NCBI RefSeq assembly: GCF_009601505.1
Contig: NZ_WITC01000059.1
Location: 1 to 64,000 of the forward strand
Direction: 5' to 3'
Source of the DNA: Sinorhizobium terangae
GTDB taxonomy: Bacteria; Pseudomonadota; Alphaproteobacteria; Rhizobiales; Rhizobiaceae
Length of the DNA stretch: 64,000 nt
Part shown: positions 17,482-23,755 of the stretch, piece after piece
Position numbering within the stretch: position 1 is the stretch's first letter
Layout of the letters: each line of letters starts with the position of its first letter
The notes under the pieces: generated by a model
What the model was told of the DNA's origin: nothing
The model's database searches: none
The model's input: the letters and a program-made list of their open reading frames with translations, nothing else
Made by a program: the position numbers and the translations under genes

Positions 17482-18546
17482 ATGACACTCGCAAAGGCTC
17501 AGCAGGGCAAGATCCCGGCCACAGTCATCACCGGCTTCCTCGGCGCCGGCAAGACGACGATGATCCGCAATCTTTTGCAGAACGCCGACGGCAAGCGCAT
17601 CGCGCTAATCATCAACGAGTTCGGCGATCTCGGAGTCGACGGCGATGTCCTGAAGGGCTGCGGCGCGGACGCCTGCTCCGAGGACGATATCATCGAACTC
17701 ACCAATGGCTGCATCTGCTGCACGGTCGCCGATGACTTCATCCCGACCATGACGAAGCTGCTCGAACGCGAGAACCGTCCGGACCACATTGTCATCGAGA
17801 CCTCGGGTCTCGCCCTGCCGCAGCCGCTGGTCGCCGCCTTCAACTGGCCGGACATCCGCAGCGAAGTGACCGTCGACGGCGTCGTGACCGTCGTCGACAG
17901 CGCCGCGGTTGCCGCCGGCCGCTTTGCCGACGACCACGACAAGGTCGATGCGTTGCGCGTCAATGACGACAATCTCGACCATGAAAGCCCGCTCGAAGAG
18001 CTCTTCGAGGATCAGTTGACCGCCGCCGACCTCATCGTTCTCAACAAGACCGACCTGATCGATGCATCCGGCCTGAAGTCGGTGCGCGATGAGGTGGCTT
18101 CCCGCATCAGCCGCAAGCCGACGATGATCGAGGCGAAGAACGGCGAGGTGGCTGCCGCCATCCTGCTCGGCCTTGGCGTTGGCACCGAGGGCGAGATCGC
18201 CAACCGCAAGTCCCATCACGAGATGGAGCATGAGGCCGGCGAAGAGCACGATCACGACGAATTCGACAGTTTTGTCGTCGAACTCGGCGCGATCAGCGAT
18301 CCCGCCGCCTTCATCGATCGGCTGAAGGGCGTGATCGCGGAGCACGACGTTCTGCGCCTCAAAGGCTTCGCCGACGTCCCCGGCAAGCCGATGCGCCTCC
18401 TGATCCAGGCGGTCGGCAGCCGCATCGACCAGTATTACGACCGGGCCTGGGCGGCCGGCGAGGCACGCGGCACGCGCCTCGTCGTCATCGGCCTGCACGA
18501 CATGGACGAAGCGGCAGTGCGCGCGGCCATTGCGGCGCTGGTGTGA
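17482..18546 (+). CDS. cobW: CobW, GTPase of the COG0523 metallochaperone family
   Basis: A 354-residue G3E GTPase with P-loop GFLGAGKTT (residues about 19-27), the metal motif GCICCTV near residue 77-82, and NKTD for guanine recognition. A histidine/acid-rich loop HHEMEHEAGEEHDHDEF at about 240-256 is a typical metal-binding insert. CobW is thought to deliver cobalt to the cobaltochelatase CobNST. It starts 3 bases after the cobP stop and is followed by a RIME-like repeat and then cobN, consistent with that role. Confidence 0.95.
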   Translation: MTLAKAQQGKIPATVITGFLGAGKTTMIRNLLQNADGKRIALIINEFGDLGVDGDVLKGCGADACSEDDIIELTNGCICCTVADDFIPTMTKLLERENRPDHIVIETSGLALPQPLVAAFNWPDIRSEVTVDGVVTVVDSAAVAAGRFADDHDKVDALRVNDDNLDHESPLEELFEDQLTAADLIVLNKTDLIDASGLKSVRDEVASRISRKPTMIEAKNGEVAAAILLGLGVGTEGEIANRKSHHEMEHEAGEEHDHDEFDSFVVELGAISDPAAFIDRLKGVIAEHDVLRLKGFADVPGKPMRLLIQAVGSRIDQYYDRAWAAGEARGTRLVVIGLHDMDEAAVRAAIAALV

Positions 18547-18571: not shown

Positions 18572-18737
18572 TTCCCCTCCCCAAACCCTCCCCACAAGGG
18601 GGAGGGGCTTGGCCGGTCCCACCGTCTTTGCGTCCGTCCTAGACGGTTCAGCCAGACGCAAACGCTGAATACGGGCAGGTGGGCGCCGCAGGCGCTTAGC
18701 CCCTCCCCCTTGTGGGGAGGGGTTGGGGAGGGGCGCT
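18572..18737. repeat. RIME-like inverted pair between cobW and cobN
   Basis: Left arm (18572-18609) contains CCTCCCCACAAGGGGGAGGGG; right arm (18697-18737) is its inverse with CCCCTCCCCCTTGTGGGGAGG. They flank about 90 bases. The element lies inside the cob transcript and ends 26 bases before the cobN start. Confidence 0.85.
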
Positions 18738-18762: not shown

Positions 18763-21700
18763 ATGCATCTCCTCCTAGCCCAGAAAGGCACGATCGCCGA
18801 TGGCAACGAGGCGATCGATCTCGGGCAAAGCCCGGCCGACATCCTGTTCCTCTCCGCCGCCGACACGGAACTCGCCTCGATCGCCGCGGCCTACGGGCGG
18901 CGGACGGGGGCAAGGACACTGCGCATCGCCAGTCTGATGAACCTGATGCACCCGATGTCGGTCGACACTTATGTCGAGCGCACGGCACGGCATGCGAGGC
19001 TGATCGTCGTTCGCCCGCTCGGGGGCGCCAGCTATTTCCGTTATGTGCTCGAGGCGCTCTATGCGGCGGCGATTGCGAATAAATTCCAGATCGCGGTGCT
19101 CCCCGGCGACGACAAGCCGGATCCGGGTCTCGATCCGTTCTCTACGGTGTCCGCCAATGACCGCGAGCGCCTCTGGGCCTATTTCACCGAGGGCGGCGCC
19201 GACAATGCGGGGCTCTTCCTCGACTATGCCGACGCGCTGATTGATGGAGGCGAGAAGCCGCAGCCGGCGCGGCCGCTCTTGAAGGCGGGTATTTGGTGGC
19301 CGAGCGAGGGTGTGATCGGCGTTGAGCGATGGCGCGCGATTGCGGGTCTGCCGGGAACAGCCCCCTCTGTCCTGCCGGACATCTCCCCCACAAGGGGGGA
19401 GAACGGGGGTGCAACGCTTCGCCCATCTGGTTCTGCCGAGTTCGAGGCCAAGCCTGCCTCGGCGAGCAAGCCTGTGCGTGACGATCATGCAAATCGACGG
19501 TCTGAAACTTGGGAATCGAGCGGTAGCGGCGCGCTGATCTCCCCCCTTGTGGGGGAAATGTCCGACAGGACAGAGGGGGGTAATGCCGCGCAGAGTTCGG
19601 AGGAGAAGAAGGAAGCCGAACCCACGGTCGCCATCTGCTTCTACCGCGCGCTCGTCCAAAGCGGCGAAACGAGACCCGTCGAAGCCTTGATCGGGGCGCT
19701 TGCGACTGAAGGCATGCGGGCGCTCCCGGTCTTCGTTTCGAGCCTGAAGGATCGGGTCTCGATCGGTACGCTGCAGGCGATCTTCGCTGAAGCCGCACCG
19801 GACGTGGTGATGAACGCCACCGGCTTTGCGGTTTCCGCGCCCGGTGCCGACCGTCAGCCGACCGTGCTCGAATCGACCGGCGCGCCGGTGTTGCAGGTGA
19901 TCTTTTCCGGCTCCTCGCGCGCCGCCTGGGCGGCGTCGCCGCAAGGGCTGATGGCGCGTGATCTCGGCATGAACGTTGCGCTGCCGGAGGTAGACGGCCG
20001 CATTCTCTCCCGCGCCGTCTCGTTCAAGGCGGCGTCCGTCTACGATCCGGCGGTAGAAGCCAACATCGTCGGGCACGAACCGCTCTTGGACCGCGTCCGC
20101 TTTGCCGCACGGCTTGCTGCCAACTGGGCGCGACTGCGCCGGGCGAGGCCGGAGGCACGCCGCGTTGCCATCGTCATGGCCAATTATCCCAACCGCGATG
20201 GGCGCCTCGGCAACGGCGTTGGCCTCGACACGCCGGCCGGCACCATCGAGGTGCTGAAGGCGATGGCCGCGGAAGGCTATCCCATCGGTGACCTTCCCGA
20301 GGACGGCGACGCGCTTATGCGCTTCCTGATGGCCGGTCCGACCAATGCGGCGAGCCATGACCGCGAAATCCGCGAGTTCATTTCGCTCGATCGATATAAG
20401 GATTTCCTCGCCTCTCTTCCGCGGCAGATCCAGGACGAGGTGACGGCGCGCTGGGGCGATCCCGAAGCCGATCCCTTCTTCTTGGACGGAGCCTTCGCGC
20501 TACCGCTCGCGCGCTTCGGCGAGGTCCTCGTCGGCATCCAGCCTGCGCGCGGCTACAACATCGATCCAAAGGAAACCTATCACGCGCCGGACCTCGTTCC
20601 GCCGCACGGCTATCTCGCCTTCTATGCTTTCCTGCGGCAGGTCTTCAAAGCTGACGCGATCATCCACATGGGCAAGCATGGCAATCTCGAATGGCTGCCT
20701 GGCAAGGCGCTGGCACTTTCGGAGAATTGTTATCCCGAGGCGGTCTTCGGCCCGACACCGCATCTTTACCCCTTCATCGTCAACGATCCGGGCGAAGGCA
20801 CGCAGGCCAAGCGCCGCACCAGCGCCGTCATTATCGACCATCTGACGCCGCCCTTGACGCGGGCGGAATCCTACGGGCCGCTCAAGGATCTGGAGGCGCT
20901 GGTCGACGAGTATTACGAGGCGGCGGGCGGCGACCCGCGCCGGCTCAGGCTCCTGAGCCGGCAGATCCTCGACCTCGTCCGCGACATCGGCCTCGATCAT
21001 GATGCCGGGATCGAAAAGGCCGACAGTGACGACAAGGCGCTGGAAAAGCTCGACGCCTATCTCTGCGACCTGAAGGAGATGCAGATCCGCGACGGGCTGC
21101 ATATCTTCGGCGTCGCGCCGGAAGGGCGTTTGCTGACCGACCTCACCGTGGCACTGGCGCGGGTGCCGCGTGGCTTGGGCGAGGGCGGCGACCAGAGCTT
21201 GCAGCGGGCCATTGCGTCGGACTTGGGGCTAGGCGGGTCGGCGCAAGTACCCCCCTCTGTCCTGCCGGACATCTCCCCCACAAGGGGGGAGATCAGGGAG
21301 GAGAGCTCTCATGCTTCCACGGCGCCCCAACATGAGGCGGGCCCACCGGCTCGAGGACGTGATGCAAGTCTCATGGCCCGGCCACGCCAGGCGGGTCTGA
21401 CGGCAGAAGGTGCAATTGTTAGCGGTAGCGTCGACCCGAGTATCGGCGGCGGCGCCGGGGAACCGAGCAGTCGCCACCTGCCAATCTCCCCCCTTGTGGG
21501 GGAGATGCCCGGCAGGGCAGAGGGGGGTACGCCTCAGCAGCCGCAACCTTTCGACCCGCTCGACTGCGTCATGTCCGCACCCTGGACCGGCCCGGTACCC
21601 GCGCCTCTCGCTTCTCTCTCGGATGCACCCTGGCGCACCGCCGGCGATACCGTCGAGCGTATCGAACTCCTCGCGGCGAAGCTGGTCTCCGGCGAGATCG

Positions 21701-23100
21701 CCTGCCCCGAGAACTGGGCCGCGACACGCGCTGTCCTTGACGAGATCGACGATCGACTGAAGCCCTCGATCGAAGGCTCGGGCGACGCGGAAATCAAAGG
21801 CCTGCTCACCGGGCTCGACGGCCGCTTCGTGGCACCCGGGCCGTCCGGTGCGCCGACGCGTGGGCGGCCGGACGTGCTGCCGACCGGCCGCAATTTCTAT
21901 TCCGTCGACAGCCGCGCCGTGCCGACGCCGGCGGCCTATGAGCTCGGCAAGAAATCGGCCGAATTGCTCATCCGCCGCTATCTGCAGGACCATGGCGAAT
22001 GGCCGTCCTCCTTCGGGCTCACCGCATGGGGGACCTCCAACATGCGCACCGGCGGCGACGATATCGCCCAGGCGCTGGCGTTGATCGGCGCCAAGCCGGT
22101 CTGGGACATGGCCTCGCGCCGCGTGACCGGCTACGAGATCGTGCCGCTGGCGATGCTCGGGCGGCCGCGCGTCGATGTCACGCTCCGCATTTCCGGTTTC
22201 TTCCGTGACGCATTTCCGGAGCAAATCGCTTTGTTCGACAAGGCGATCCGCGCCGTCGGGGCGTTGGAAGAGGACGACGCCGACAACATGATCGCCGCGC
22301 GCATGCGTGCCGAGACGAAGCGGCTTGAGGAGAAGGGTGTCGAAGCGAAGGAAGCGGCGCGGCGTGCCTCCTACCGCGTCTTCGGTGCCAAGCCGGGTGC
22401 CTACGGGGCCGGCCTGCAGGCGCTGATCGACGAGAAGGGCTGGGACAAGCGCAGCGATCTCGCTGATGCCTATCTCACCTGGGGCGGCTATGCCTATGGC
22501 GCCGGCGAGGACGGCAAGGCCGAGCGCGGTATTTTCGAAGAACGGCTGCGGTCGATCGAGGCTGTCGTCCAGAATCAGGACAATCGCGAACACGACCTGC
22601 TCGACAGTGACGACTATTACCAATTCGAGGGCGGCATGAGTGCTGCGGTGGAGCACCTCGGCGGCCAGCGCCCGGCGATCTATCACAACGACCATTCGCG
22701 CCCGGAAAAGCCGGTGATCCGCTCGCTGGAAGAGGAAATCGGCCGCGTCGTGCGCGCCCGCGTCGTCAACCCGAAATGGATCGATGGCGTCATGCGCCAT
22801 GGTTACAAGGGCGCCTTCGAGATTGCCGCGACGGTCGACTACATGTTCGCCTTTGCCGCGACCAGCGGGGCCGTGCGCGACCATCATTTCGAGGCCGCCT
22901 ACCGCGCCTTCATCAGCGACGAAAAGGTCCTCGACTTCCTGCGCGACAGGAACCCGGCGGCGCTCGCCGAAATGTCGGAACGCTTCCTGGAGGCAATCGA
23001 TCGCGGCCTCTGGAATCCGCGCTCCAACTCGGCGCGTTTTGAACTGACCAGTCTGTCCGGCAATGCGGCCGCTCCTCGGCTGCGTACCGGAAACCAATAG
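18763..23100 (+). CDS. cobN: CobN, large subunit of aerobic cobaltochelatase, with two repeat-derived insertions
   Basis: The ATP-dependent cobaltochelatase subunit that holds hydrogenobyrinate a,c-diamide. The ATG at 18763 has GGAGGAG upstream. The signature HMGKHGNLEWLPGKALALSE occurs at about residues 637-656, followed by PHLYPFIVNDPGEGTQAKRR. At 1445 residues it is about 170 longer than usual CobN (about 1275). The excess is two in-frame segments, residues about 200-274 and 830-922, both built from paired palindromic repeats and both opening PSVLPDISPTRGE and closing SPLVGEM.R.EGG. The frame stays open throughout, so the protein is probably made and the inserts sit in tolerant loops. cobS and cobT are not in this window. 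Confidence 0.95.
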   Translation: MHLLLAQKGTIADGNEAIDLGQSPADILFLSAADTELASIAAAYGRRTGARTLRIASLMNLMHPMSVDTYVERTARHARLIVVRPLGGASYFRYVLEALYAAAIANKFQIAVLPGDDKPDPGLDPFSTVSANDRERLWAYFTEGGADNAGLFLDYADALIDGGEKPQPARPLLKAGIWWPSEGVIGVERWRAIAGLPGTAPSVLPDISPTRGENGGATLRPSGSAEFEAKPASASKPVRDDHANRRSETWESSGSGALISPLVGEMSDRTEGGNAAQSSEEKKEAEPTVAICFYRALVQSGETRPVEALIGALATEGMRALPVFVSSLKDRVSIGTLQAIFAEAAPDVVMNATGFAVSAPGADRQPTVLESTGAPVLQVIFSGSSRAAWAASPQGLMARDLGMNVALPEVDGRILSRAVSFKAASVYDPAVEANIVGHEPLLDRVRFAARLAANWARLRRARPEARRVAIVMANYPNRDGRLGNGVGLDTPAGTIEVLKAMAAEGYPIGDLPEDGDALMRFLMAGPTNAASHDREIREFISLDRYKDFLASLPRQIQDEVTARWGDPEADPFFLDGAFALPLARFGEVLVGIQPARGYNIDPKETYHAPDLVPPHGYLAFYAFLRQVFKADAIIHMGKHGNLEWLPGKALALSENCYPEAVFGPTPHLYPFIVNDPGEGTQAKRRTSAVIIDHLTPPLTRAESYGPLKDLEALVDEYYEAAGGDPRRLRLLSRQILDLVRDIGLDHDAGIEKADSDDKALEKLDAYLCDLKEMQIRDGLHIFGVAPEGRLLTDLTVALARVPRGLGEGGDQSLQRAIASDLGLGGSAQVPPSVLPDISPTRGEIREESSHASTAPQHEAGPPARGRDASLMARPRQAGLTAEGAIVSGSVDPSIGGGAGEPSSRHLPISPLVGEMPGRAEGGTPQQPQPFDPLDCVMSAPWTGPVPAPLASLSDAPWRTAGDTVERIELLAAKLVSGEIACPENWAATRAVLDEIDDRLKPSIEGSGDAEIKGLLTGLDGRFVAPGPSGAPTRGRPDVLPTGRNFYSVDSRAVPTPAAYELGKKSAELLIRRYLQDHGEWPSSFGLTAWGTSNMRTGGDDIAQALALIGAKPVWDMASRRVTGYEIVPLAMLGRPRVDVTLRISGFFRDAFPEQIALFDKAIRAVGALEEDDADNMIAARMRAETKRLEEKGVEAKEAARRASYRVFGAKPGAYGAGLQALIDEKGWDKRSDLADAYLTWGGYAYGAGEDGKAERGIFEERLRSIEAVVQNQDNREHDLLDSDDYYQFEGGMSAAVEHLGGQRPAIYHNDHSRPEKPVIRSLEEEIGRVVRARVVNPKWIDGVMRHGYKGAFEIAATVDYMFAFAATSGAVRDHHFEAAYRAFISDEKVLDFLRDRNPAALAEMSERFLEAIDRGLWNPRSNSARFELTSLSGNAAAPRLRTGNQ
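19361..19582. repeat. Palindromic composite element inserted in frame in cobN (first)
   Basis: The left unit (19361-19410) holds TCTCCCCCACAAGGGGGGAGA, with CTGTCCTGCCGGACAT before it. The right unit (19536-19582) is its inverse. The 222-base span (74 codons) is open in the cobN frame. It corresponds closely to the second element at 21250-21529, in the same orientation. Confidence 0.85.
21250..21529. repeat. Palindromic composite element inserted in frame in cobN (second)
   Basis: The left unit (21250-21292) is nearly identical to the first element's left unit, including CCCCCTCTGTCCTGCCGGAC. The right unit (21483-21529) is the inverse. The middle differs in sequence and length. The element adds about 93 residues to CobN. 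Confidence 0.85.
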
Positions 23101-23110
23101 GGAGATCACC

Positions 23111-23755
23111 ATGAGCGACGAAACGGTAAAGAGCGGCGAAGCCGCTCCGGAAAAGGACGAAGCCCGCCACGCCATGAAGATGGCGAAGAAGAAGACCGCG
23201 CGCGAAAAGATCATGGCGACGAAGACGGACGAAAAAGGCCTGATCATCGTCCACACCGGCAAGGGCAAGGGCAAGTCGACTGCCGGCTTCGGCATGATCT
23301 TCCGCCACATCGCACACGGCATGCCCTGTGCCGTCGTGCAGTTCATCAAGGGCGCCATGCAGACCGGCGAGCGCGACCTGATCGAGAAGCATTTCGGCGA
23401 CCTCTGCCAGTTTTACACACTTGGTGAAGGTTTCACCTGGGAAACGCAGGACCGCGCCCGCGACGTGGCGACGGCCGAAAAAGCCTGGGAAAAGGCCAAG
23501 GAACTGATCCGCGACGAGCGCAACTCCATGGTGCTGCTTGACGAGATCAACATCGCGTTGCGTTACGACTACATCGATATCGGCGAGGTCGTGCGCTTCC
23601 TGAAAGAGGAAAAGCCGCACATGACCCATGTGGTTCTGACCGGCCGCAACGCCAAGGAAGATCTGATCGAGATCGCCGATCTGGTGACCGAGATGGAACT
23701 CGTCAAGCATCCGTTCCGGTCCGGTATCAAGGGGCAGAAGGGCGTCGAATTCTGA
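23111..23755 (+). CDS. cobO: CobO: cob(I)yrinic acid a,c-diamide adenosyltransferase
   Basis: A 214-residue CobA/CobO/BtuR-type enzyme that adds the adenosyl ligand from ATP to reduced corrinoid. The P-loop HTGKGKGKST spans residues 48-57, with further signatures GAMQTGERDLIEKH and LLDEINIAL. The N-terminal 35 residues are lysine-rich, as in other rhizobial CobO. GGAGATCACC before the ATG is the ribosome site. It closes the cobP-W-N-O run; a palindromic stem without a T-run follows the stop. Confidence 0.96.
   Translation: MSDETVKSGEAAPEKDEARHAMKMAKKKTAREKIMATKTDEKGLIIVHTGKGKGKSTAGFGMIFRHIAHGMPCAVVQFIKGAMQTGERDLIEKHFGDLCQFYTLGEGFTWETQDRARDVATAEKAWEKAKELIRDERNSMVLLDEINIALRYDYIDIGEVVRFLKEEKPHMTHVVLTGRNAKEDLIEIADLVTEMELVKHPFRSGIKGQKGVEF

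Follow-up and report, generated by a model that had tools for sequence, protein, structure and literature searches.

Two in-frame palindromic blocks in cobN of Sinorhizobium terangae are copies of a dispersed two-hairpin element

Palindromic inserts that keep the reading frame of their host gene are best known from Rickettsia, whose palindromic elements (RPE) were reportedly described by Ogata, Claverie and colleagues; in rhizobia, the Rhizobium-specific intergenic mosaic elements (RIME) are said to go back to Osteras 1995. RPE are presented, in the excerpts of PMC10969869 and PMC3733652 used here, as palindromic repeats of about 150 bp, located between genes as well as in frame in unrelated genes. 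The excerpt of PMC3733652 (2013) also reports GTAG- and CGTC-tagged REPs inside the ORFs of many bacteria, mostly accounting for 20-30 and at most 82 amino acids, and notes that recB of two Xanthomonas species has differing REPs at roughly one position. RIME and the A/B/C palindromes of rhizobia are described as intergenic, with function unassigned, in an excerpt of PMC2573895, the original RIME paper being cited in excerpts of PMC3687685 and PMC1273637; within the portion of the open-licence literature covered, nothing was found that describes palindromes translated within genes of rhizobia.

The locus considered here lies in a window of 64,000 nucleotides (the whole stretch of S. terangae DNA that was analysed), in which cobW, cobN and a cobO-type gene follow one another on the + strand, and in which two copies of a palindromic element, named F1, lie in frame within cobN:

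17482-18546, + strand: cobW, upstream neighbour of cobN
18574-18733, no strand assigned: two-arm palindrome of family F2, different from F1, in the cobW-cobN gap
18763-23100, + strand: cobN, cobaltochelatase subunit CobN, 1445 aa, with two in-frame palindromic inserts (ORF; TIGR02257 cobalto_cobN, 1781 bits; PF02514)
19361-19402, + strand: site 1 left arm of the palindromic element, reads PSVLPDISPTRGE (inverted-repeat and arm comparison)
19403-19537, + strand: site 1 variable middle
19538-19582, - strand: site 1 right arm, reads ISPLVGEMSDRTEGG
21247-21293, + strand: site 2 left arm
21294-21483, + strand: site 2 variable middle
21484-21530, - strand: site 2 right arm, reads ISPLVGEMPGRAEGG
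23063-23755, + strand: cobO-type ATP:corrinoid adenosyltransferase ORF, downstream of cobN, start provisional

The length of 1445 residues predicted for CobN in the initial annotation is borne out by a frame open over 1445 codons and matching the CobN models; the excess reported there stands, its size being corrected from about 170 to about 180 residues when set against the shortest CobN of the genus (1264 aa) and the solved CobN (1263 aa). The peptides read as had been claimed, the blocks beginning PSVLPDISPTRGE and ending SPLVGEM.R.EGG, and the inverted, near-identical arms said to bound them are found at 19361-19582 and 21247-21530, each block consisting of a pair of inverted arms of about 46 nt flanking a variable middle. 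Arm complementarity at site 2 is 96%; comparing site 1 with site 2, similarity is 96% for the left arms (48 nt) and 82% for the right ends (72 nt). The further claim that both blocks share one orientation can rest on the middles only, because the element is inverted-symmetric at its arms, and the middles have in common just a 13-nt match (92%, E 0.035). The core arm pattern, at no more than three mismatches, matches four times in the 64-kb window against 0.00 expected, and a scan of the window for inverted repeats of at least 22 nt with arms within 400 nt gave six, the top three by size being the two cobN pairs and the pair between cobW and cobN.

An assembly artefact was ruled out, since the blocks turn up in many members of the set formed by the 33 genus assemblies and the best 80 of 538 named records, and a known structured RNA was discarded as their identity, since an Rfam scan of the window returned no family at gathering score. 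As side observations, the F2 palindrome at 18574-18733 lets the cobN frame run upstream to a GTG at 18712, and a 709-aa ORF antisense to cobN (21229-23358, - strand), apparently a by-product of GC-rich codon use, stays open through the site 2 element.

Both cobN blocks belong to a palindromic element with two hairpins, of which many copies are scattered over the genome. With the site 2 block as query, BLAST gives 108 matches in the genome of the window (G000) and 98 in G032, a conspecific complete genome, and a typed composite query gives 115 in the genome G022, each element yielding several matches. Grouping the G032 matches resulted in 28 places; the 26 loci taken besides the two in cobN, together with cobN as read from G000, comprise 23 two-arm copies of 172-306 nt overall. 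Their structure consists of convergent arms of about 46 nt, typically YACCCCCCTCTG..CATCTCCCCC-ACAA-GGGGGGAGAT, with ends that are typically YACCCCCC and GGGGGGTR, apart from some exceptions, around a middle that varies; the outer ends of the S. terangae copies are often TA or CA on one side and TA or TG on the other, again with exceptions. Being short, dispersed and equipped with terminal inverted repeats of about 46 nt at an overall length of up to about 300 nt, F1 resembles a bacterial MITE, although one to which no transposase could be linked: no arm pair at the spacing of a transposase gene was seen by eye in the match lists of G000, G032 and G022, and no clean target-site duplication emerged from the copy ends or from the comparison of filled with short sites. 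Its mobility is thus inferred from its distribution. F1 is comparable to RIME and to the other S. meliloti palindromes as a dispersed palindromic element of rhizobia, from which, described as intergenic, it differs in being found also inside genes, the comparison being one of descriptions.

The suggestion that the same unit might be sought in other genes proved fruitful: at least 7 of the 23 two-arm copies of S. terangae are in frame in genes, a class assigned by open frame, domain matches and conserved N-termini rather than by full gene calling, because coding-potential scores are weak on short N-terminal flanks. The host genes of S. terangae are the following:

cobN: two in-frame copies
ftsY: two copies and one further single arm (TIGR00064)
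pbpC, penicillin-binding protein 1C: one copy, in the N-terminal tail (TIGR02073)
mltB-like gene, MltB-type lytic transglycosylase: a copy just before the hydrophobic part of the signal peptide (TIGR02283)
di-haem oxidoreductase (DHOR): a copy between the signal-like N-terminus and the domain (PF06537)

G022 has 38 two-arm copies, of which at least 6 fall within genes, namely cobN (twice), ftsY, pbpC, the mltB-like gene and the same di-haem oxidoreductase. By pattern, the N-terminal region of FtsY, whose gene is expected to be essential, has at least one arm in 25 of 30 loci of the genus (33 genomes), compared with none of 29 loci of the wider order sample (115 of 121 genomes matched), one of the latter (L268) having by eye a different palindrome-like peptide. 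The acidic FtsY N-terminal region of Sinorhizobium (L176-L205) contains repeated palindromic units whose middles are rich in D/E, S. terangae (L148:1862-3760) having two and a half of them, and in G026 (L179) a long run of TE dipeptide repeats stands between units. Both arms are found by pattern in 14 of 30 PbpC loci, the N-terminal tail being absent altogether in several species, and the PBP1C tail may have grown by element insertion in other species; of 30 loci for the mltB-like gene, at least 10 show the insert, several of the remaining ones being unscored owing to the wrong ORF having been picked. A special coding frame of the element was ruled out, as two left-arm frames are used within CobN and a third in the mltB-like and DHOR genes. 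The openness of the arm in six frames is hardly extraordinary either, being equalled by 328 of 5000 shuffles and by 496 of the 2781 46-mers of the window; the mean number of open frames out of six is about the same for in-gene (2.86) and other copies (2.88), and 2.21 for random stretches of the window.

The likeness to Rickettsia palindromic elements proposed in the initial annotation is supported by location and in-frame state, the comparison being one of features: as RPE do, F1 occurs both outside and inside the genes of one genome (S. terangae, G022), and is in frame and stop-free in unrelated conserved genes (cobN, ftsY, pbpC, mltB-like, DHOR). Unlike RPE, it is a GC-rich two-hairpin unit of Hyphomicrobiales that uses more than one reading frame, and two sites of a single gene are home to several palindrome families and have changed state dozens of times. 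With the GTAG- and CGTC-tagged REPs it has in common the presence of palindromes in ORFs and, as in Xanthomonas recB, of different palindromes at one site, but its ends (typically YACCCCCC and GGGGGGTR) lack the GTAG or CGTC tag and its in-gene copies in S. terangae span 58-102 codons, against the 20-30 and at most 82 amino acids given for REPs.

Within the genus, CobN ranges from 1264 to 1445 aa, and in the alignment of the 33 proteins gap runs of at least five columns occur only at the two block sites and at the C-terminus. The gene is free of internal stops in 33 of 33 genomes and, with TIGR02257 and PF02514 matched, can be considered neither split nor interrupted, an eventuality contemplated at the outset. 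Counting G032 out as a near-identical copy and taking less than 110 nt in the site region as short, one finds each of the two sites filled in 15 and short in 17 of the 32 rows, with 12 rows short at both; on the tree, this requires at least 9 changes between filled and short at site 1 and at least 10 at site 2. Short sites may retain arm remnants, recognized by pattern at site 1 of G002 and G008 and at site 2 of G002, G003 and G004, and by eye at site 2 of G012 and G020. The site 2 scar of G002 (L120) is short and has two 16-nt arms which are fully complementary, a change from the consensus being present on both sides, as if the arms had been corrected against each other.

A wider sample was obtained by adding to the 33 genus genomes the best 80 of 538 named relatives, a ranking by similarity which may favour inserts like those of the query. 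Of these 113 CobN, 55 have a strong inverted repeat at site 1 and 88 have one at site 2, strong meaning a score of no less than 14 that also exceeds those of 10 shuffles; the corresponding figures for the genus are 16 and 18 of 33. In the 101 Hyphomicrobiales CobN retained from them for the tree, the two sites hold at least three distinct palindrome families: among the best 80 of 538 named relatives F2 (CCCCTCCCCAACCCCTCCCCACAAGGGGGAGGGG), F3 (CTTCTCCCCAGCGGGGAGAAG), F1 with its arms in divergent order, and long inserts devoid of a family label also fill the sites, and F2 arms are located inside cobN site 2 in several Rhizobium. Since the families have a C-run/G-run hairpin core in common, a remote common origin of F1, F2 and F3 is possible. 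The tree (FastTree, one gene, insert columns removed; 12 rows dropped, that is, six named duplicates of genus genomes, G032 and five of no more than 1200 residues) requires at least 33 changes of state at site 1 and at least 31 at site 2, counts to which transfer of cobN between species may contribute, and in which families are set by sequence patterns, partial F1 matches in long inserts being scored as F1. The sequences show that across Hyphomicrobiales the two sites have by turns been occupied, vacated and reoccupied, with distinct palindrome families involved, in a recurrent process rather than one event. The initial annotation had regarded the case as unusual; beyond what could be seen from a single sequence, such inserts are common in the group, belong to several families at the two sites and are recurrent.

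As for the protein, the solved CobN (PDB 9uk9, 1263 aa) aligns to residues 1-186, 284-824 and 929-1433 of the query, and its chain spans the first block place with a linker of just 10 residues and the second with a single residue. An AlphaFold2 model covering residues 1-1190 was built from 31 sequences (mean pLDDT 63.7, pTM 0.60); in it, residues 197-283 and 826-926 have pLDDT under 50, with block means of 24-32 and no secondary structure, and much of the core is at 80-90; the model offers weak evidence that the blocks may be disordered, because its quality is moderate and conserved stretches of the core are equally low, for instance at residues 1031-1050 (block means 25 and 22). Pairwise dN/dS (Nei-Gojobori, NG86, on 11 of the 33 genus genomes, the pairs being non-independent and the inserts short) is 0.58-2.55 and mostly 0.7-1.2 for the inserts, against 0.07-0.12 for the rest of CobN, the frame being preserved and the insert peptide not. 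For the closest insert pairs it amounts to 1.07 (G010/G027, site 2), 1.2 (G000/G018, site 2) and 0.96 (G010/G018, site 1); many other pairs have pN and pS near 0.4, their middles being possibly non-homologous, which by itself leads to a dN/dS near 1 and makes the ratio uninformative. Some inserts are young, exchanged or constrained, as the G010/G027 site 2 middles differ by 7% only, less than the synonymous sites of CobN (pS 0.29).

Taken together, the blocks are very probably a rhizobial counterpart of RPE as judged by features, parked in dispensable linkers of CobN and turning over there. Elements of this kind would move or be copied by a MITE-like or recombination process, and most landings in genes would be lost; the survivors would be those that hit a tolerant linker, preserved a multiple of three and brought in no stop, after which selection would preserve the frame only, the middle being free to drift, to be replaced, possibly to invert, or to shrink by deletion to a short scar. 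The predicted product is a working CobN with two disordered loops.

An alternative is that each site received one ancient insertion, which was inherited and then underwent divergence and decay only, with no re-insertion. The arm remnants in short sites mentioned above and the presence of the element in the same genes of two species agree with such a history; it is nevertheless unlikely, as sister rows of the tree differ in the family at site 2 (L018 F1 and L078 F2; L045 F1 and L029 F2) and the middles of the mltB-like gene differ strongly within a single species. Between G000 and G032 (L237, L236) the flanks of the latter are identical at 293 of 300 and 287 of 300 positions, that is, 96-98%, and the middle fits better inverted (57/76) than direct (44/68), both versions being open. 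Because inversion still leaves a difference of 25%, compared with 2-4% in the flanks, the middle may equally have been replaced by another copy or have flipped long ago. At cobN site 2, middles match inverted in G007/G008 (75% over 112 nt) and G024/G025 (77% over 113 nt); a flip inside the gene was dropped as a settled reading, since a similar inverted identity (0.73-0.78) is also attained between other site 2 middles in gapped control alignments. Inverted and direct pairs above threshold are 2 and 18 at cobN site 2 and 8 and 18 in the mltB-like gene, with no inverted pairs at cobN site 1 (18 direct) or at pbpC (28 direct). An old insertion with later replacement is possible.

An effect on the mRNA, in the form of slower ribosomes or adjusted message stability brought about by a strong stem at each linker, for which any palindrome family suffices, could account for the recurrence of distinct families at the same two places of cobN, for the complementarity maintained in the G002 scar through a change on both sides, and for the folding of both blocks far better than shuffles (RNA folding z-scores -10.4 and -9.4). 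Strong stems are, however, expected from the element itself, similar elements are located in N-terminal tails (pbpC, mltB-like), and at each site 17 of the 32 genus rows are short, 12 being short at both, so that this explanation appears very unlikely. That the blocks are functional segments of CobN, docking for instance CobS/CobT, is extremely unlikely: although they are in frame in every genus genome having them, dN/dS is mostly 0.7-1.2, several different peptides occupy one site, the low-confidence model gives them no secondary structure, and presence is patchy, at variance with the conserved domain that the initial annotation had thought relatives might show.

Beside the parking of tolerated elements in linkers, which remains the preferred reading, it can be speculated, though it is quite unlikely, that the two linkers are permanent docking places, at which strong palindromes bring an advantage time and again instead of just being tolerated, the mRNA stem (or the protein spacer) helping the co-translational folding or the tuning of the large CobN. 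If so, palindromic elements would be a reusable part for building linkers, a view which the units recurring in the acidic FtsY N-terminal region of Sinorhizobium also suggest. In either case, filled, decayed, empty and replaced states are found at the same two places of cobN across dozens of species, mostly soil and plant bacteria; because all these states coexist there, and ftsY, a gene expected to be essential, offers further inserts, whether tolerance alone or a benefit of the hairpin governs the growth of linkers is directly testable in this well-sampled group.
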